DNA from: Streptomyces sp. NBC_01497
GTDB taxonomy: Bacteria; Actinomycetota; Actinomycetes; Streptomycetales; Streptomycetaceae
Direction: 5' to 3'
Assembly (NCBI RefSeq): GCF_036250695.1
Contig: NZ_CP109427.1
Span: forward strand, 6,014,001-6,078,000
Length of the DNA stretch: 64,000 nt
The notes below the pieces were generated by a model. The model was not told the DNA's origin. It worked only from the letters and a program-made list of their open reading frames with translations, and did no database searches. The translations under genes and the position numbers were made by a program. This document shows, piece by piece, positions 8,041-16,669 of this stretch (within the stretch, counting starts at the first letter, position 1; the number at the start of each line of letters is the position of its first letter).

Positions 8041-9435
8041 GTGGCGGTGGCAGGTGGGGACCGTGCGGGAACGGGCGACGGCGGCACGGACGGGGGCGCG
8101 CCGGCGGCGGGCCGCCCGGTGACGGCGGGCGGCGGGAACGGCCGCCCGGCGCACGGGGCGGACGGGGGCGGGGCGCCGCACCCGGCGGGCGCCACCGGCT
8201 CCCTCGACGTCACCGCCCGGCTGCGCCCGCCGGGCGGCCCGGGGACACCCCCCGCGCCGGGCCGCTCGCTCATGACGCGCCCGCTGCTGGTGCTGTTCGC
8301 GATCGCCGCGGGCGCGGCGGTCGGCAGCCTCTACTACGCACAGCCGCTGCTCGGCGTCATCGGCGGCGACCTCGGTGTGGGAGACGGCACGGTCGGCCTG
8401 CTGGTGACGGCGACACAGGTCGGTTACGCGCTCGGCATCCTGTTCATCGTGCCGCTCGGCGACCTGCGCCAGCGGCGCCTCCTGATCCCCGTGATGATGG
8501 TCCTTTCGGCGCTCGCGCTGGGCGCCTGCGCCGTGGCGCCCGGCATCGGGACGCTGGCGGGCGCCCTGATCGCCGTCGGGGTCACGACCGTCGCCGGGCA
8601 GATACTCACGCCGCTCGCCGGTGATCTCGCGGACGACGCGTCGCGCGGCAAGGTCGTCGGGATCGTCGTCAGCGGCATCCTCACCGGCATCCTGATCGCG
8701 CGGATCTTCGCGGGGCTCGTCGCCTCCGCGTTCAGCTGGCGCGTGGTGTTCCTGGTGGCGGCGGCCGTCGCGCTCGTGCTGGCCGGGCTGCTGTACCGGT
8801 TCATCCCGAAGCTGCCGCCCCGCTCCACCACCCTGTCCTACCGCGCGCTGCTGAAGTCGGTGTTCTCGCTGATCGCGCACGAACCGAAGCTGCGCATCAG
8901 CATGGTCTTCGGGATCTTCGGCTTCGCGGTGTTCACGATGCTGTGGACGTCGCTGACCTTCCTGCTGTCGGGACCGCCCTACAACTACCCGACCGCCGCC
9001 ATCGGCTTCTTCGGTGTGGCCGGGCTCATCGGCGCGCTCGCCGCGCAGGGGGCGGGGCGGCTGCACGACCGGGGCAGGTCCGTGGTGGGCGTCGGCCTCG
9101 CCTGGGTGCTGATCCTGGTGTCGTGGGTGGTCATCGGGTTCGGCGGGCACGTCCTGGTGGTGCTGGTGGTCGGCATCATCGTGCTGGACATCGGCATCCA
9201 GGGGCAGAACATCCTGGCGCAGTCCCGCGTCTTCCAGATCTCCGCCGAGGCGCGCAGCCGCCTGAACACCGCCTACATCGCGGGCAACTTCGCCGGCGGC
9301 GCGATCGGCTCCGTCGTCGCGACGATGACCTGGGACGCGGGCGGCTGGACCGCCGTGAGCGTCACCGGCGGCGCGCTGTCACTGGCGGCGCTGCTCGTCT
9401 GGGCGCTCACCCGGCGGGGCGCGCTGCGGCCGTGA
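8041..9435 (+). CDS. MFS transporter (sugar/drug efflux type)
   Basis: Major facilitator superfamily permease with about 12 membrane helices starting at residue 78. The A-loop signature between helices 2 and 3 is visible as PLGDLRQRRLLIP. The GTG at 8041 has a GGAGAGG site at good spacing and gives a 77-residue Gly/Ala/Pro-rich N-terminal tail; the alternative ATG at 8272 (387 aa) has no SD and begins exactly at the membrane domain. The family contains efflux proteins for drugs, amino acids or sugars, and the substrate cannot be told. The 3' end lies 52 bp before the SARP gene. Confidence 0.85.
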   Translation: MAVAGGDRAGTGDGGTDGGAPAAGRPVTAGGGNGRPAHGADGGGAPHPAGATGSLDVTARLRPPGGPGTPPAPGRSLMTRPLLVLFAIAAGAAVGSLYYAQPLLGVIGGDLGVGDGTVGLLVTATQVGYALGILFIVPLGDLRQRRLLIPVMMVLSALALGACAVAPGIGTLAGALIAVGVTTVAGQILTPLAGDLADDASRGKVVGIVVSGILTGILIARIFAGLVASAFSWRVVFLVAAAVALVLAGLLYRFIPKLPPRSTTLSYRALLKSVFSLIAHEPKLRISMVFGIFGFAVFTMLWTSLTFLLSGPPYNYPTAAIGFFGVAGLIGALAAQGAGRLHDRGRSVVGVGLAWVLILVSWVVIGFGGHVLVVLVVGIIVLDIGIQGQNILAQSRVFQISAEARSRLNTAYIAGNFAGGAIGSVVATMTWDAGGWTAVSVTGGALSLAALLVWALTRRGALRP

Positions 9436-9475
9436 ACCGGGGCGCAGCGGCGTCCGTCCCCCGGGACGGCTGGGG

Positions 9476-9481
9476 GACAAT
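9476..9481 (+). promoter_or_regulatory. Probable leaderless -10 of the SARP gene
   Basis: GACAAT lies 6 nt before the ATG at 9488, and there is no Shine-Dalgarno sequence. This is the spacing expected when transcription begins at or next to the start codon. No clear -35 is visible. Confidence 0.4.
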
Positions 9482-9487
9482 GACGCC

Positions 9488-12400
9488 ATGCGCTACCGAG
9501 TCCTCGGCACAACCCACGCATTCCGCGACGACGGCGCGCCCGTCGCCGTCGGAGGCGCGCGCCTGCGTGCCCTGCTCGCGGCGCTCGCGGTGCGTCCCGG
9601 CCGTACGGTCCCGGTCCACGCCCTCGTCGCACAGGTCTGGGACGGCGACCCGCCCGCCGACGGCGTCGCCGCGCTCCAGGCCCTGATCGGCCGGCTGCGC
9701 AGGGCCCTCGGCCACACGGCGGTGGAGTCCGGCGAGGGCGGCTACCGGCTGTGCGCCGCCGAGGACGACGTCGACGCGTACCGGTTCACCCGTCTCGCCG
9801 CCGAGGGCACGCGAGCCCTGGAGGCGGGCGACCCGGTGAAGGCGAGCACGCTCCTCTCGGACGCCCTCGCGCTGTGGCAGGGCCCCGCCCTCGCCGACCT
9901 GCCGGATGGTACGAGCGAGGCCACCCGCTGGGAGACCCGCCGCAAGGAGGCGCACCGCACCCACCTGGCCGCATCGCTCGCCCTCGGCAGGGCCGACGAG
10001 GTGCTGCCCGAACTGACCGCGCTGTGCGACGAGTTCCCGCTCGACGAACGTGTCCAGGCGCTGCGGATCAGAGCCCTGCGCGACGCCGGCAGACCGGCCG
10101 AGGCGCTGGCGGCGTACGAGGGGATGCGCCAGGGGCTCGCGAGCCGGCTGGGCGCGGACCCCGGCCCGGAACTGCGCGCGCTCCACGGTGAGCTGCTCAC
10201 TCTTGCCCCCGCCTCCCCGCCGCGAACGCCCCGGGTCCCGTCGGGCGGCGGCGGGACGGGCGGTCCCGGCGGGCGGACGGCTTCCGGCTCGTCCACCGCC
10301 GGCGCCGCCGGTTCGGCCACCGCCGGCGCGGAAGGCGTCCGCACCCCCGAAGCGGGGCCCCCGCATGTCCCGGGGAACCTGCGGGCCCGGCTCACCTCGT
10401 TCGTCGGGCGTGAGGCGGACATCGCGGCCCTGCACGAGGATCTGGCGCGGGCCCGCCTGGTCACGCTGCTCGGCCCGGGCGGCGCCGGGAAGACCCGGCT
10501 CTCGCAGGAGGCGGCCGAGGCCGCGGGCAGCCCCGCCTACCCGGACGGGGTGTGGCTGGCGGAACTGGCCCCCGTCGAGGACCCCGCCACCGTCCCCGAG
10601 GCCGTTCTCACCGCGCTCAGGGCCCGCGAGACCGTACTGCGCGGCGCGGGCGCCGAGGGGCTGCGCGCCGCCGACCCGCACGCGGGCGAGCCGCTCGCCC
10701 TCCTCGCGGAGCATCTGGGCCGTCGTCGGATGCTGTTGATCCTGGACAACTGCGAGCATGTGGTGGGTGCGGCGGCGGAGGTGGCGGAGGCGCTGTTGAC
10801 CCGGTGCCCCGGATTGACGGTGTTGGCGACGAGTCGTGAGCCGCTGGGGGTGCCGGGTGAAGTGGTGCGTCCGGTGGGGGCGTTGGGCGTGGATGCGGCG
10901 TTCCGGTTGTTCGCGGAGCGAGGGCGTGCGGTGCGGCCCGGGTTCGTGGCGGGGGAGGACCGGGCGGCGGTGGGGGAGATCTGCCGTCGGCTGGACGGGT
11001 TGCCGCTGGCCATCGAGTTGGCGGCGGCGCGGTTGCGGGTGCTCTCGCCGCGGCAGATCGCGGACCGGTTGGACGACCGTTTCCGGTTGCTGAGCCGGGG
11101 GAGCCGTACGGTGCTGCCGCGCCAGCAGACGCTGCGTGCCGTGGTGGACTGGTCGTGGGATCTGCTGGACGCAAGCGAGCGGGCGGTCCTGCGGCGGTTG
11201 TCGGTCTTCGCGGGCGGGTGCGATCTCGCCGCGGCCGAGGCCGTCTGCACGGACACCCCAGATTATGCGGACACCCCGGATCATGCGGATACCTCGGAGT
11301 ATGCGGGGACCCCGGACCGTGCGGGCACCCCAGAGGCCCCGGGCAGCCGTCCCCGCGCGCACGACGACGACATCGCCACCGTCCTCGGGTCCCTCGTCGA
11401 CAAGTCCCTGGTCGTCGCCGTGCCCGCGGCCCGGCCCGACACGGGGATGCGCTACCGCCTGCTGGAGACCGTCGCCGAGTACGCAGCCGAGCGGCTGGAC
11501 GAGGCCGGCGACCGGGCCGCCACCGAGCGCGGGCACCTGGTGCACTACCGGGAACTGGCCCGTACGACCGACCCGTTGCTGCGCGGCGCCGGTCAGCGCG
11601 CCGCGCTCGACCTGCTCACGCGGGAGTACGAGAACCTGAGGACGGCCCTGCGCAGGGCGCAGGCGTCCCGCGACGAACACGAGGTGCTGTGCCTCGTGCT
11701 CTCCCTCAGCTGGTACTGGCAGATGCTCGACCAGCGCTCGGAGGCGCGGCACTGGGCCGCGGGCGCGTGTGAGCTGGGCCCCGACCCGTTCGCGGAACCC
11801 GCGCGCCCCGCTCCGCCGATCCACCAGCGGTGCATCGACGCGCCACCGCCGATGTCGGACGAGCTGCTGGAGGAGGCGCGGCGGGAGGTGCGGCTGTTCG
11901 AGATGCTCAACGCCGACCTGTCCGGCGGCGTCTGGCTGGCCGGGCACGAGGAGTGGCTGCACACGGTCGCCCGGGTCTACCGGGCCGGGCTGCCGCAGAC
12001 CTGCCGCCCTCCCGGCATGTTCTGGCTCCTGGCGCTCCTGTTCACCGGCGACGAGGACGGTGTGACCGCCGCGATGGACGAAACGGCGCGGGCGTGCGAG
12101 GAGTTCGGCCTCGAATGGGACCTCGCGAGCATCCTGCAGATGCGGGCGAACTTCCGCGCCAACCGGGGCGCCTTCGCCGAGTCGGCGGCCCGGGACGCGG
12201 AGCGGGCCCTCGCCATCTTCGAACGGCTCGGCGACGCCTGGGGCACGGCCGAGTCGCTGTCCGCGCGGGGCGAGGCGTACGAGAAGCTCGGCCGCCACGC
12301 GGACGCCGCGGCGGACTACGTGGCGGCGGTCCGCTACGCCGAGGGTCTCGGCGCGCTCCACCATGTGGAACTGCTGCGGGTGCGGCTCGCGCAGAACCTG

Positions 12401-13069
12401 GTCGAGCTGGGCCGGGGCGCGGAGGCCGAGGCCATGCTGCACGAGGTGCTGGACGCGCACGGCGCCGAGGACAGCGGCACCTCGAACCACGACGTGGTGC
12501 CGATCACCCGGGTCTTCCTCGCGACCTGGCTCGGCCGGTCGGGGCGCAGGCAGGAAGCCCGCGAACAGCTCTTCGCGGCCCAGCAGTCGTTCGGCAGCGG
12601 GCCCCTGCTGGTCTTTCAGGGGCTGGTCAGGTCGGCACTGTCCTGGCTGGACGTGGAGGACGGCGCGTTCGGCCAGGCCCTGGAGCGCATCCGCGCGTCG
12701 CTGGAGGAGCCCGTCCCGCGCCTCGCGCGGTTGATGGCCCCGGAGATGGGCGCGGTGCAGGTGCTGATCGCGGCGCGGGCCCTCGCTGGTGTCGCGCTCA
12801 CGCGTGCGGCCGGACCCCGGCCCGGAGCCGGAGCAGAGACCGGCGCGGAGGCCGGGACGGGCAGGACGGCCCGTGACGCGGCACGCCTGCTGGGTGCCTA
12901 CGAGGCACTGCTCCCGGTGGGACACGTGCGGAGCCCCTTCGAGGCGGAGGTGTTCCAGGCCGCGGAGAAGGAGACGCTGACCGCTCTGTCGGGTGACGCG
13001 GCGGCCCACGCCGAGGCCCGCGCGGCGGGCGCCGTCCTCTCCCTGGAAGAGGCGACGGCACTGGTCTGA
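9488..13069 (+). CDS. AfsR/SARP-family transcriptional activator with NB-ARC ATPase and TPR-like C-terminus
   Basis: Large 1193-residue regulator. Order: OmpR-like winged helix DNA-binding domain (residues 1-90), bacterial transcriptional activation domain with ADVYRFTRL-like start (95-240), Gly/Pro/Ala linker (240-295), NB-ARC ATPase with P-loop LLGPGGAGKTRLS near 330 and LLILDNCEHVV (Walker B) near 418, winged helix, and a long helical TPR-like C-terminus. SARPs bind direct heptamer repeats with 11-bp spacing and activate antibiotic or export genes; AfsR integrates Ser/Thr kinase signals. A D/T/P-rich insertion coded by 18-bp repeats interrupts the winged-helix/helical junction. Nucleotides about 10735-11220 use a strikingly different codon set. 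It converges on the DrrAB operon. Confidence 0.9.
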   Translation: MRYRVLGTTHAFRDDGAPVAVGGARLRALLAALAVRPGRTVPVHALVAQVWDGDPPADGVAALQALIGRLRRALGHTAVESGEGGYRLCAAEDDVDAYRFTRLAAEGTRALEAGDPVKASTLLSDALALWQGPALADLPDGTSEATRWETRRKEAHRTHLAASLALGRADEVLPELTALCDEFPLDERVQALRIRALRDAGRPAEALAAYEGMRQGLASRLGADPGPELRALHGELLTLAPASPPRTPRVPSGGGGTGGPGGRTASGSSTAGAAGSATAGAEGVRTPEAGPPHVPGNLRARLTSFVGREADIAALHEDLARARLVTLLGPGGAGKTRLSQEAAEAAGSPAYPDGVWLAELAPVEDPATVPEAVLTALRARETVLRGAGAEGLRAADPHAGEPLALLAEHLGRRRMLLILDNCEHVVGAAAEVAEALLTRCPGLTVLATSREPLGVPGEVVRPVGALGVDAAFRLFAERGRAVRPGFVAGEDRAAVGEICRRLDGLPLAIELAAARLRVLSPRQIADRLDDRFRLLSRGSRTVLPRQQTLRAVVDWSWDLLDASERAVLRRLSVFAGGCDLAAAEAVCTDTPDYADTPDHADTSEYAGTPDRAGTPEAPGSRPRAHDDDIATVLGSLVDKSLVVAVPAARPDTGMRYRLLETVAEYAAERLDEAGDRAATERGHLVHYRELARTTDPLLRGAGQRAALDLLTREYENLRTALRRAQASRDEHEVLCLVLSLSWYWQMLDQRSEARHWAAGACELGPDPFAEPARPAPPIHQRCIDAPPPMSDELLEEARREVRLFEMLNADLSGGVWLAGHEEWLHTVARVYRAGLPQTCRPPGMFWLLALLFTGDEDGVTAAMDETARACEEFGLEWDLASILQMRANFRANRGAFAESAARDAERALAIFERLGDAWGTAESLSARGEAYEKLGRHADAAADYVAAVRYAEGLGALHHVELLRVRLAQNLVELGRGAEAEAMLHEVLDAHGAEDSGTSNHDVVPITRVFLATWLGRSGRRQEAREQLFAAQQSFGSGPLLVFQGLVRSALSWLDVEDGAFGQALERIRASLEEPVPRLARLMAPEMGAVQVLIAARALAGVALTRAAGPRPGAGAETGAEAGTGRTARDAARLLGAYEALLPVGHVRSPFEAEVFQAAEKETLTALSGDAAAHAEARAAGAVLSLEEATALV
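11261..11332 (+). repeat. 18-bp coding tandem repeat inside the SARP gene
   Basis: Four in-frame 18-bp units (starting 11261, 11279, 11297, 11315) with a partial unit before them. They encode degenerate hexapeptides of the type Y/H-A-D/G-T-P/S-D/E in a flexible acidic linker between the ATPase/winged-helix part and the helical part. Unit length is a multiple of three, so copy number can change without breaking the frame. Confidence 0.75.
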
Positions 13070-13296: not shown

Positions 13297-14208
13297 TCAG
13301 GTCTTGTTGCGGAACTTGCGGACCGCCAGCGGGGCCATCACCAGCGTGATCCCCGCGGCCCAGCCGAGCGTCATCAGCGCGGAGTGCGCCACCGGTCCGC
13401 CGTCGATCAGGCCACGGGCCGCGTCCGCGAGGTTGGAGAGCGGGTTGTAGTCCGTGAAGCCCTGCAGCCAGCCCGGCATCGTCTTGGTCGGGGCGAAGAT
13501 CGAAGAGCCGAACTGCAACGGCATCAGCACGAGCATCGCCACGCCCTGCACCGCCTGCGACGTCTTCATGGTCAGGCCGAGCAGCATGAAGATCCACATA
13601 AGCGCCGCGCCGAAGGCCAGGGAGAGTCCCACAGCGGCCAGCAGGCCCAGCACCGACGTCTGCACGGTCATGCCGAGCGCGAACCCCATGCCCAGCAGGA
13701 TCGCCGTGGCGACCAGCATGCGGCCTATCTCCACCACGATCTTCGCGATCAGCACCGACGAGCGGGCGATCGGCATCGTGCGGAAGCGGTCCATGACCCC
13801 CTTGCGGAAGTCGTCGTTGACACCGCTGCCGACGGCCATGGCGATGTTCATGCCCATCATGGCCATCAGTCCCGGCACGACGTAGTTCAGGTAGTCGTGC
13901 CGGTCACCGCCGAGGCTCGCGCCGACGGAGCCGCCGAACACGTACACGAACAGCACCGTGAAGATGATCGGCATCAGCAGGACGTCGAACATCGACTCCG
14001 GGTCCTGGCGGATCTGCAGGACGTTGCGCCGCACCAGGGCGCCGATGTGCCGCAGGTTCGCCCGCAGGCCGATCCTGCCGTCGTCCGCTGCCTGGGCCGA
14101 GGCGAGCCGCGGCGCGGAGGCCGGGGCGGGTGAGGGCGAACCGGGGCCGTGCGAGGGGCCGTGGCCCGTCGCCGGCTGCGTCTGCGCGCTCGTAGACGTC
14201 GTACTCAT
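13297..14208 (-). CDS. ABC-2 type drug exporter permease (DrrB-like)
   Basis: Membrane half of a DrrAB-type exporter. After a 45-residue Ser/Pro/Ala-rich cytoplasmic tail there are six predicted helices. The region QDPESMFDVLLMPIIFTVLFVYVFGG is typical of daunorubicin-resistance permeases, and the loop VNDDFRKGVMDRFRTMPIARS is the coupling segment. The gene overlaps the ATPase gene by 4 nt (ATGA), so the two are translationally coupled. Substrate unknown; the family exports anthracyclines and other hydrophobic natural products. Confidence 0.9.
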   Translation of the reverse strand: MSTTSTSAQTQPATGHGPSHGPGSPSPAPASAPRLASAQAADDGRIGLRANLRHIGALVRRNVLQIRQDPESMFDVLLMPIIFTVLFVYVFGGSVGASLGGDRHDYLNYVVPGLMAMMGMNIAMAVGSGVNDDFRKGVMDRFRTMPIARSSVLIAKIVVEIGRMLVATAILLGMGFALGMTVQTSVLGLLAAVGLSLAFGAALMWIFMLLGLTMKTSQAVQGVAMLVLMPLQFGSSIFAPTKTMPGWLQGFTDYNPLSNLADAARGLIDGGPVAHSALMTLGWAAGITLVMAPLAVRKFRNKT

Positions 14209-15251
14209 ACGGCGACCCCCTCAGTCTCGGTCTCGGCGGTCCACGTGGTCTGCGCGCCGCCCGTCGTCTTCTCGCCCGTGATCGCCAGGAACACCTCGTC
14301 CAGGCTCGGCAGGTGCGTGCCGATGTGCGCGATCGAGAAGCCCCGTCCGCCGAGCACACCGATCACCGCCGTCAGTTGTTCGTCGCTGAGGATCGGCACG
14401 TACAGCACGCCCTCGTCGGGCACCGCCGTGGCGCCCGCGACCCCGTCGAGGCCCGTCTCGGCGAGTGCCTGCGCCATCTGCGGCAGTTCCCCGGGATCGG
14501 TCGGGGTGATCTTCAGCGTGCGGCCGCCGACCCGCGCCTTCAGGTCGTCCACCCGGCCGCCGGCGATGACCCGCCCCCGGTCGAAGACCGTCAGCTCGTC
14601 CGCGAGCTGCTCGGCCTCCTCCATGTACTGCGTGGTCAGCAGCACGGTCGCCCCCTCGCCGACCAGCCGCTGCACCTCGTCCCACACCTCGTTGCGCGTG
14701 CGCGGGTCGAGGCCGGTGGTCGGTTCGTCCAGGTACAGGACGGACGGCCGGCCGATCATGGAGGCCGCCAGGTCGAGCCGGCGCCGCATGCCACCCGAGT
14801 ACTGCATGGCCGGCTTCTTGGCCGCCTCGGTCAGGGAGAAGCGCTCCAGGAGCTCGTCGGAGCGGAGTCGGGCCTCGCGCCGGGGCAGGTCGAGCAGGCG
14901 CCCGATCATGTAGAGGTTCTCCCAGCCGGAGAGCTTCTCGTCGACCGAGGCGTACTGGCCGGTCAGGCCGATGGTGCGGCGCAGCTGCCGGGGCTGGCGC
15001 AGGACGTCGTACCCGGCGACCCTCGCGGAGCCCGCGTCCGGCTGCAGGAGGGTGGACAGGATGCGTACGAGCGTGGTCTTGCCCGCGCCGTTGGGTCCGA
15101 GTACGCCGAGGACGGTGCCCTCGCGCACGTCGAGGTCGACCCCGTCGAGAGCCTTCGTGCCCTGGGGGCCGCCGAACTGCTTGACGAGCCCCCGCACCTC
15201 GACGGCGATGCCCCTGCGGCTGGCGCTCGGGTTCTTGTCGATTCGCGTCAT
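14205..15251 (-). CDS. ABC exporter ATP-binding protein (DrrA family)
   Basis: Nucleotide-binding subunit of the exporter. Visible motifs: Walker A LGPNGAGKTTLVR, signature YSGGMRRRLDLAAS, Walker B VLYLDEPTTGLD, and the H-loop region LLTTQYMEEAEQLADEL. The DrrA-type C-terminal domain contains GRVIAGGRVDDLKARVGG. I prefer the ATG at 15251 (348 aa); ATG 15260 and GTG 15275 are also in frame, but the latter lies inside a heptamer repeat array that looks regulatory. Confidence 0.9.
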   Translation of the reverse strand: MTRIDKNPSASRRGIAVEVRGLVKQFGGPQGTKALDGVDLDVREGTVLGVLGPNGAGKTTLVRILSTLLQPDAGSARVAGYDVLRQPRQLRRTIGLTGQYASVDEKLSGWENLYMIGRLLDLPRREARLRSDELLERFSLTEAAKKPAMQYSGGMRRRLDLAASMIGRPSVLYLDEPTTGLDPRTRNEVWDEVQRLVGEGATVLLTTQYMEEAEQLADELTVFDRGRVIAGGRVDDLKARVGGRTLKITPTDPGELPQMAQALAETGLDGVAGATAVPDEGVLYVPILSDEQLTAVIGVLGGRGFSIAHIGTHLPSLDEVFLAITGEKTTGGAQTTWTAETETEGVAV

Positions 15252-15273
15252 GTCCACCATGGGACCAGCCGCC

Positions 15274-15365
15274 ACCGACAGCGCACCGACATGCCACCGA
15301 CACCCCGGGCCGGACGGGCGGTCTCACCGACATATCGCCGACAGCTCGCCGACATATGTCCGAGT
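15274..15365. promoter_or_regulatory. Heptamer direct-repeat arrays at 11-bp spacing (SARP-box-like)
   Basis: Two arrays precede the DrrAB operon. Array 1: ACCGACA at 15274, 15285 and 15296. Array 2: ACCGACA 15326, GCCGACA 15337, GCCGACA 15348, TCCGAGT 15359. Every step within an array is exactly 11 bp (heptamer + 4 bp). Such 11-bp-phased heptamer direct repeats are the classic binding pattern of SARP activators, and a SARP gene lies just beyond this operon. On the coding (minus) strand the unit reads TGTCGGT/C. I see no clear -10 at the usual 8-bp distance, so the promoter is not placed. Confidence 0.6.
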
Positions 15366-15482
15366 ATCGGCGGCAGGCCGTGCGCCGCGGTCGGCCCGGG
15401 GCCGGAATCCGACCGGGTGCGGGTATGCGGCGGCCCGCCGACGGGGGACGTTCGGCGGGCCGCCGGTGGTGCGGGCAGTGGC

Positions 15483-16370
15483 TCAGTGGAAGGTGTGCTC
15501 CTCCTGCGGGAACGTTCCTCCGACGACCTCGTCCGCGAACGCGCGCGCCGCGTCGCCCAACGTCTCGCGCAGGTTCGCGTACTGCTTGGTGAAGCGCGGC
15601 ACACGGCCCGGCGTCAGCCCGGCCATGTCCGTGTAGACGAGCACCTGCGCGTCGGTCAGGGCGCCCGCCCCGATCCCGACGGTCGGGATGTGCAGGCCGC
15701 GCGTGACCTCGGCCGCCAGCTCGCCCGGGACCAGCTCCAGCACCACCGCGAAGGCGCCGGCGTCCTGGACCGCCTTGGCGTCCCGCAGCAGCTGCTGGGC
15801 CGCCTCCTCGCCCCGGCCCTGCACCCGGTAGCCCATCGCGTTGACCGACTGCGGGGTCAGGCCGATATGCCCCATCACCGGGATCCCGGACGCCACGAGC
15901 AGCGAGATCTGCTCGTGCGAACGCTCGCCGCCCTCCAGCTTCACGGCGCCCACGCCCGCGTCCTTCACCAGGCGCGTGGCGCTGCGCAGGGCCTGCACCG
16001 GTCCCTCCTGGTACGAACCGAAGGGCAGGTCGGCCACGATCAGCGCGCGCTTCGTGCCGCGTACGACGGCGGCCGACAGCATCGCCATCTCGTCGAGCGT
16101 GACGGGCACGGTCGTCTCGTACCCGAGGTGGCAGTTGCCCATGGAGTCGCCCACGAGCATCACCGGGATCCCGGCCTCGTCGAAGACGGACGCCGTCATC
16201 GCGTCGTACGCGGTGAGCATGGGCCACTTCTCACCGCGCTCCTTGGCGGCGGTGATGTCGTGCACGGTGATCCTGCGGGAACTCTTGCCGCCGTACAGTG
16301 CCTTGCCGCTGCTGTCGGCAGGTGTCGGAGCCTGTTCGTTCCGCGCGGACTCGGCGGGGGGAAAAGTCAT
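15483..16370 (-). CDS. panB: 3-methyl-2-oxobutanoate hydroxymethyltransferase
   Basis: Ketopantoate hydroxymethyltransferase, first committed step of pantothenate/CoA synthesis; it transfers a hydroxymethyl group from methylene-THF to alpha-ketoisovalerate. The (beta/alpha)8 family signatures are clear: LTAYDAMTASVFDEAGIPVMLVGDSMG, the Mg-binding Asp region, VKLEGG, and GHIGLTPQSV. ATG 16370 gives 295 aa with a 30-residue polar N-terminal tail; ATG 16391 is an alternative. It lies alone on the minus strand, divergent from the EEP gene. Confidence 0.95.
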   Translation of the reverse strand: MTFPPAESARNEQAPTPADSSGKALYGGKSSRRITVHDITAAKERGEKWPMLTAYDAMTASVFDEAGIPVMLVGDSMGNCHLGYETTVPVTLDEMAMLSAAVVRGTKRALIVADLPFGSYQEGPVQALRSATRLVKDAGVGAVKLEGGERSHEQISLLVASGIPVMGHIGLTPQSVNAMGYRVQGRGEEAAQQLLRDAKAVQDAGAFAVVLELVPGELAAEVTRGLHIPTVGIGAGALTDAQVLVYTDMAGLTPGRVPRFTKQYANLRETLGDAARAFADEVVGGTFPQEEHTFH

Positions 16371-16669
16371 GGCCGAAGGCCCTTTCGTCATCTCAAGGCG
16401 CCCTGACGGCGTCCCTGGACCACTTCCATGGTGGCACCTGCGGGCGGGCGCGGGAAGTGCTGGGTTCCCGCGCACCCCTGTGATCCGGGCCCCATCGCGT
16501 GCCGGGAACCTCCGGGCCCCGCGCTCACGTCATGGTCTCGGTAGGCACTGTCGTGAGGCGGCGGCGAAAGCAGGGTCACATCACCTAGGGTCGGACAGAT
16601 CCGGGGCGGGTGCGCGGGCGGGATCCGGCCCGGCCACAGGACGTACGGGCGAAGTCAGCGAGGGTATTC

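Follow-up and report, generated by a model that had tools for sequence, protein, structure and literature searches.

The drrAB locus and its repeat arrays

The window analysed here is a 64,000-nucleotide stretch of the Streptomyces sp. NBC_01497 genome (NZ_CP109427.1, positions 6,014,001 to 6,078,000). On its minus strand lie the genes of a DrrA-type ABC exporter ATPase of 348 amino acids (14205..15251; Pfam ABC_tran, NCBIfam TIGR01188 drrA) and of a DrrB-like ABC-2 permease that overlaps the end of drrA (13297..14208; Pfam ABC2_membrane). As in DrrAB-type exporters of the daunorubicin resistance family, the ATPase scores above the NCBIfam cut-off (372.9 bits against 312.45 for TIGR01188) and an ABC-2 permease adjoins it. 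Unlike in those exporters, the permease stays under the DrrB cut-offs (94.4 against 146.9 bits for TIGR00025 and 67.9 against 223.05 bits for TIGR01247) and the gene pair adjoins panB. This upstream neighbour (15483..16475, minus strand; Pfam PF02548) encodes ketopantoate hydroxymethyltransferase and is followed by a perfect 14-bp inverted repeat (15428..15465, minus strand), a probable terminator. Because the inverted repeat probably ends the panB transcript, the arrays between it and drrA sit in a promoter region of their own.

Convergent with drrAB, on the plus strand, is a gene for a large SARP of 1193 amino acids (9488..13069) with an OmpR-type DNA-binding domain, a BTAD, a putative STAND-like ATPase part and a weak TPR part. 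Membership of the SARP family rests on Pfam Trans_reg_C (27.4 bits, cut-off 26.2) and BTAD (135.4 bits, cut-off 22.1), and the AfsR structure 8hvr matches the DNA-binding domain plus BTAD at 4e-32, with the AfsR structures 8k60 and 8jke also similar. The matches to AAA_16 (31.0 bits, cut-off 32.6), nSTAND1 (25.1, cut-off 27.1) and TPR_12 (28.2, cut-off 30.1) have significant E-values and fall under the curated cut-offs. The protein is not an AfsR ortholog by NCBIfam NF053617 (170 bits against a cut-off of 1430). The genome holds 11 SARP domain matches, the next-best of which is only 38% identical to the SARP of the window, and the nine open reading frames scanned by Pfam in the window include no other recognised regulator. 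A GACAAT hexamer stands 6 nt before the SARP start codon (window 9431-9490), with GA(C/G)AAT at this place in the 25 relatives read, which suggests a leaderless regulator message.

Upstream of drrA, heptamers start on the plus strand at 15274, 15285 and 15296 (array 1) and at 15326, 15337, 15348 and 15359 (array 2). The step is exactly 11 bp within each array, and 30 bp separate the two. Read on the minus, transcribed strand, these are six TGTCGG units in two groups of three plus one weak unit. The proximal operator (15275..15302) comprises the units 15302-15297, 15291-15286 and 15280-15275, and the distal array (15327..15354), 30 bp upstream, the units 15354-15349, 15343-15338 and 15332-15327. 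Hence the coordinates bear out the earlier note in its description of two arrays with exact 11-bp steps upstream of the exporter, except that the seventh unit, ACTCGG (15360..15365, minus strand), has two mismatches, is doubtful and may be due to chance. With up to two mismatches allowed, TGTCGG-N5-TGTCGG matches 15 times in the window against 14.8 in shuffles, so only exact pairs stand out; all four exact pairs of the window fall in the two arrays.

Array 1 had been thought to touch a possible start codon, GTG 15275. We reject this codon, given that an MTRIDKN-like N-terminus begins at the codon matching ATG 15251 in most orthologs, and place the likely start of drrA 24 nt downstream, at this conserved ATG (15249..15251, minus strand), 23 nt past the last hexamer. 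The layout upstream of drrA then reads (TGTCGG-N5)2-TGTCGG-N10-TCCCAT-N7-ATG, so that the array does not touch the start. TCCCAT (15259..15264, minus strand), 10 bp past the last TGTCGG, is the predicted -10 hexamer, and the drrA transcript is predicted to be leaderless or nearly so. SARP promoters are described as having repeats spaced by 11 or 22 bp, the 3' one lying 8 bp from the -10, and AfsR is described as contacting 8 bp in each repeat (PMC10936776, excerpt). The drrA promoter shares this layout: its direct repeats are spaced accordingly upstream of the predicted -10, and the 10 bp between TGTCRG and this predicted hexamer become 8 bp if the unit is taken as TGTCRGTG.

Conservation of array and regulator

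To obtain orthologous loci, genome contigs were scanned with DrrA, which confirmed at least 580 relatives, of which the best 80 by similarity to the DrrA of the window were kept (79 titled Streptomyces and one titled 'Actinobacteria bacterium'). As these loci are related and were chosen for DrrA similarity, the counts that follow are not independent trials. Among these best 80 of at least 580, panB lies beside drrA in all 80, and a phased array of at least two units precedes drrA in all 80. The number of in-phase units, with at most one mismatch each, is two in 4 loci, three in 52, four in 17, five in 4 and six in 3. From the last TGTC(A/G)G to the start there are 23 nt in 63 loci and 22 nt in 16; the remaining locus, L147, was misplaced by the alignment start, and its sequence gives 22 nt. 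In several loci (L099, L101, L102, L119 and others) the hairpin that probably terminates panB has a 3' arm ending in TGTCGG, and this hairpin-borne unit is the outermost repeat of the array.

When 79 of these best 80 loci were aligned on the last repeat, which is thereby invariant, the two hexamers preceding it stood out strongly in 11-bp steps and a further one weakly, and the 5-bp spacers between the kept hexamers were poorly conserved. A TCNNAT-like hexamer begins 10 bp past the last repeat, with its final T in 79 of 79 aligned loci. Spacings of TGTCRG pairs across 81 intergenic regions show the same phase (162 at 11 bp and 90 at 22 bp, against 4 at 10 bp and 3 at 12 bp). Three drrA orthologs (L033, L034 and L044) carry CACTGT at the -10 place, and CACTGT is the weak -10 of afsS (PMC10936776, excerpt). 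Orthologous drrAB operons thus keep the upstream hexamers, their 11-bp phase and their distance to the -10, and the spacers drift. The earlier note had named loss of the periodicity in relatives that keep the operon as evidence against its proposal; the comparison was run and did not refute it, some relatives having drifted units. By the same comparison, conservation centres on the proximal array. The 30-bp phase break, which had been noted as unusual, is real in the window but not conserved: an extra upstream array, counted if it had at least two exact units and leaving out L147 as an artefact, occurs in 5 of the 80 other loci (best 80 of at least 580), at gaps of 9, 10, 22, 22 and 41 bp, and with such varying gaps we assign the break no conserved meaning.

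The regulator travels with the array. Its N-part is present in 55 of the best 80 loci (of at least 580), always convergent to drrA; the remaining 25 contigs stop at most 4,670 bp past the drrA start, short of the outermost N-part match in any of the 55 (4,755-6,064 bp), and 21 of these shorter contigs show the SARP C-part. Of 24 genomes of the same genus, 21 have the N-part in position and all 24 show at least the C-part, convergent beside drrB. Two of these genomes (G017 and G008) have the C-part at a contig end, that of G008 being only 40% identical. In G012 the C-part (ATPase) is in place beside drrB, the N-part (DNA-binding domain and BTAD) is remote, and the drrA array is kept and unusually long. 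The G012 gene appears split in the linker, with its parts 1.6 Mb apart on the same strand of C1 (L226 and L227, at ~7.286 Mb and ~8.890 Mb), which may reflect a genuine break or an assembly error.

The idea that the SARP gene regulates itself through these repeats was rejected, given that a TGTCRG pair occurs in 0 of 50 SARP upstream regions. Several relatives have paralogous SARPs with a near-identical recognition helix, as seen in 11 of 13 paralog loci, and the 13 paralog loci (~17 kb each, with 841 unread bases in one) contain no clear array of their own, only two triplets with two mismatches. A role of recognition-helix residue 68 (Gly or Ala) in setting the G or A of the repeat was also set aside as weak after many positions had been tried; repeats with A occur in 5 of 7 loci with Ala at this position and in 12 of 46 with Gly, counts that are uncorrected for relatedness.

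Beyond the genus, ten genomes of f3, a second family of the order, fetched around DrrA all have drrAB and a convergent SARP (the N-part in nine, the C-part at a contig edge in G030). Their units are TGTCAG, TATCAG or CGTCAG, and the arrays are imperfect, with a weak middle unit TGTGCG in genus g3 and 9- or 10-bp steps further upstream in several. The hexamer 10 bp past the last unit fits NANNNT in 10 of 10, its register having been placed by eye. In the six g3 genomes a ribosome-binding-like GAGGGGA stretch precedes the start codon, which is 55-66 nt away, and the repeat-to-hexamer distance is unchanged; hence the constraint acts on the promoter. G254, from another order, has drrAB, a convergent SARP (N-part 42% identical) and, at unchanged spacing, three perfect TGTCAG units. 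Two further genomes (G025 and G040) have DrrA homologs of 53-55% identity, which may be paralogs, with no SARP and no array in the stretch examined; a genome-wide SARP search of G025 also gave no match. Separately, within genus g41 of family f21 (L338-L345, L358-L362), 8 of 12 genomes have an exporter-like gene preceded by three TGTCAG units in 11-bp steps, with the start codon 22-23 nt past the last unit in 7 of the 8 and an MMPL domain confirmed in one, L362. The SARP of the window had no match in five g41 stretches searched, a search that a distant SARP could escape.

A nearly unique predicted operator and a possible second target

Besides drrA, only two other places in the 9.08-Mb genome carry exact TGTCGG-N5-TGTCGG, namely C1:7705347 and C1:3165080. 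If one mismatch is tolerated, the pattern matches 80 times and its reversed control 67 times, which is hardly an excess, and the weight therefore rests on exact arrays only. The site at C1:3165080 was rejected as a regulon member: this perfect tandem of an 11-bp unit lies upstream of a gene for a solute-binding protein, shows neither the -10 nor the start spacing, and has ~150 bp to the next start. Several mirror-paired matches were seen near both ends of the large contig (C1), as expected for the long terminal inverted repeats of a linear chromosome.

A strict pattern, defined as three TGTCRG units, then 22-23 nt, then ATG, gave 97 matches in 96 of 150 genomes of the genus, and the reversed control gave none. 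All but one of the 97 are at drrA, the exception being an alpha/beta hydrolase gene of the NBC_01497 genome itself. All 80 matches fetched from previously unseen genomes encode a DrrA that is 69-90% identical to that of the window; of the other 17, 16 coincide with DrrA places by coordinates and one is the hydrolase. The strict match is absent in 54 of the 150 genomes, including 9 of the 24 same-genus close relatives, which fail because their units have drifted: drifted units, for instance TGTAGG, are readable before drrA there. A class-level pattern, lacking the start-codon condition, matched in 54 of 394 genomes and is noisy, given that the reversed control also matched in 12; many of the 30 class-level loci read proved, outside Streptomyces, to be plain tandem repeats.

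The hydrolase gene (C1:7705347-7706219; L052, L197) has the same operator and spacing as drrA. Close orthologs occur in 2 of 40 relatives (G033, 71% identity, and G039, 66%; next-best E-value 7e-18), and in both, which belong to another family, repeats of the TGTCAG/TATCAG form stand 22-23 nt before the ATG, although in G039 the units are imperfect and the -10 register is one base off. As the repeats at drrA and at the hydrolase both follow the code of the host, one shared regulator for the two genes in each host is suggested, from a sample of three genomes.

A probable SARP-gated exporter

We consider it highly probable that drrAB has a SARP-type promoter whose operator is the proximal array, and that the convergent SARP encoded at 9488 binds there and is gated by its STAND/TPR part. 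The repeats, their phase, their distance to a -10-like hexamer, their conservation, the linkage to the SARP gene and the near-uniqueness of the operator are read directly from the genomes. The proposal of the earlier note that the AfsR-like gene at 9488 acts as the activator of the exporter is well supported by this comparison of repeats, phase, linkage and near-unique operator, and gene 9488-13069 is the predicted activator of drrAB. Mechanistically, two or three SARP protomers would occupy adjacent TGTC(G/A)G repeats on the upstream side of the -10. With the -35 absent, they would recruit RNA polymerase with the main sigma factor to the weak -10 TCCCAT, and the output would be a leaderless or nearly leaderless drrA message. 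The STAND ATPase and TPR part would hold the SARP off until a signal arrives, perhaps the compound exported by the pump. That the SARP binds here and activates, and does not repress, is inferred, as are the point where transcription starts and the nature of the signal and of the substrate.

The closest precedent is AfsR/afsS of Streptomyces coelicolor, which likewise combines a SARP with a DNA-binding domain, BTAD and ATPase-like part with 11-bp direct repeats upstream of a weak -10 and a poor -35. In that system, two AfsR protomers sit side by side on the 11-bp repeats, and sigma region 4 rests on the protein and not on the -35 (PMC10936776, excerpt). By analogy, the convergent SARP would activate drrAB as AfsR does, with a third repeat added. 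The differences are that the repeat is TGTC(G/A)G here against CGTT(T/C)ATCG for AfsR, that the target is an exporter operon, and that the SARP of the window is no AfsR ortholog, with AfsR R87 and T88 aligning, by our reading, with Q and A. In Streptomyces natalensis, PimR/pimM has a main operator of three heptamers and a second of two in one promoter (PMC5930380, excerpt), a precedent for two arrays at one promoter from which the distal array is best read as an accessory operator. PimR differs in its heptamer, CGGCAAG, in an operator that does not overlap the -35, and in its target, the regulator gene of an antifungal cluster.

Another SARP, either a paralog or AfsR itself, could be the main activator at this SARP-type operator, with the neighbouring gene a co-regulator or unrelated. 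SARP domains are numerous (11 matches in the genome), and the near-identical recognition helices of paralogs in several relatives could share the site. We nevertheless hold this to be unlikely, because the array and the convergent SARP travel together in Streptomyces, in the ten f3 genomes and in G254, whereas close paralogs are patchy and the NBC_01497 genome, with none above 38% identity, keeps its array; in addition, the repeat reported for AfsR, CGTT(T/C)ATCG (PMC10972967, excerpt), differs from TGTCRG.

It is less likely still, and to our judgement quite improbable, that the repeats bind a repressor, or a PhoP-like response regulator that uses 11-bp direct repeats, and so silence the exporter or place it under phosphate control. 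Sites between -10 and -35 are able to repress. The repeat sequence is presumably not a PHO box. At afsS the PhoP-bound region overlaps the AfsR site, and the SARP Atr32 is reported as a negative regulator (both PMC10972967, excerpt), but here position and spacing fit SARP activation and no other regulator was recognised among the nine scanned open reading frames. It seems extremely unlikely that the array arose through slippage of an 11-bp unit during replication and has no regulatory role. Perfect TGTCRG 11-bp tandems do occur alone, at C1:3165080 and in several other genomes; slippage, however, fits poorly with hexamers that are kept while the 5-bp spacers vary, with a distance to the -10-like hexamer that is kept across families, and with a strict pattern that is found at drrA and nearly nowhere else in the genus.

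Activation of drrAB by the convergent SARP is hence our preferred reading. The kind of promoter is already known; no description of the SARP-drrAB pairing or of the TGTCRG motif was found in one open-access library, judged mostly from listings. A wider view, which we offer tentatively and consider doubtful as a whole, is that the SARP-STAND protein and drrAB form an ancient signal-gated efflux module of actinomycetes outside antibiotic clusters. Its regulon would be one or two promoters, and its repeat code would differ between lineages, reading TGTCGG in Streptomyces and TGTCAG-like in relatives, with both promoters changing together. On this view, control of export, not of biosynthesis, could be an ancestral job of this SARP branch, and the MMPL exporter of another family, preceded by a promoter of similar form, hints at such a role too.

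Most of what is known of SARPs concerns the switching of antibiotic clusters, and they serve to activate silent clusters. In the present case, what a large SARP appears to control is a conserved exporter beside panB, through a compact and nearly unique operator. If so, the locus would be well suited to learning what the STAND part of large SARPs senses, as it combines a single regulator with one main promoter, has an exporter as its output and comes in natural variants that differ in repeat code and number.
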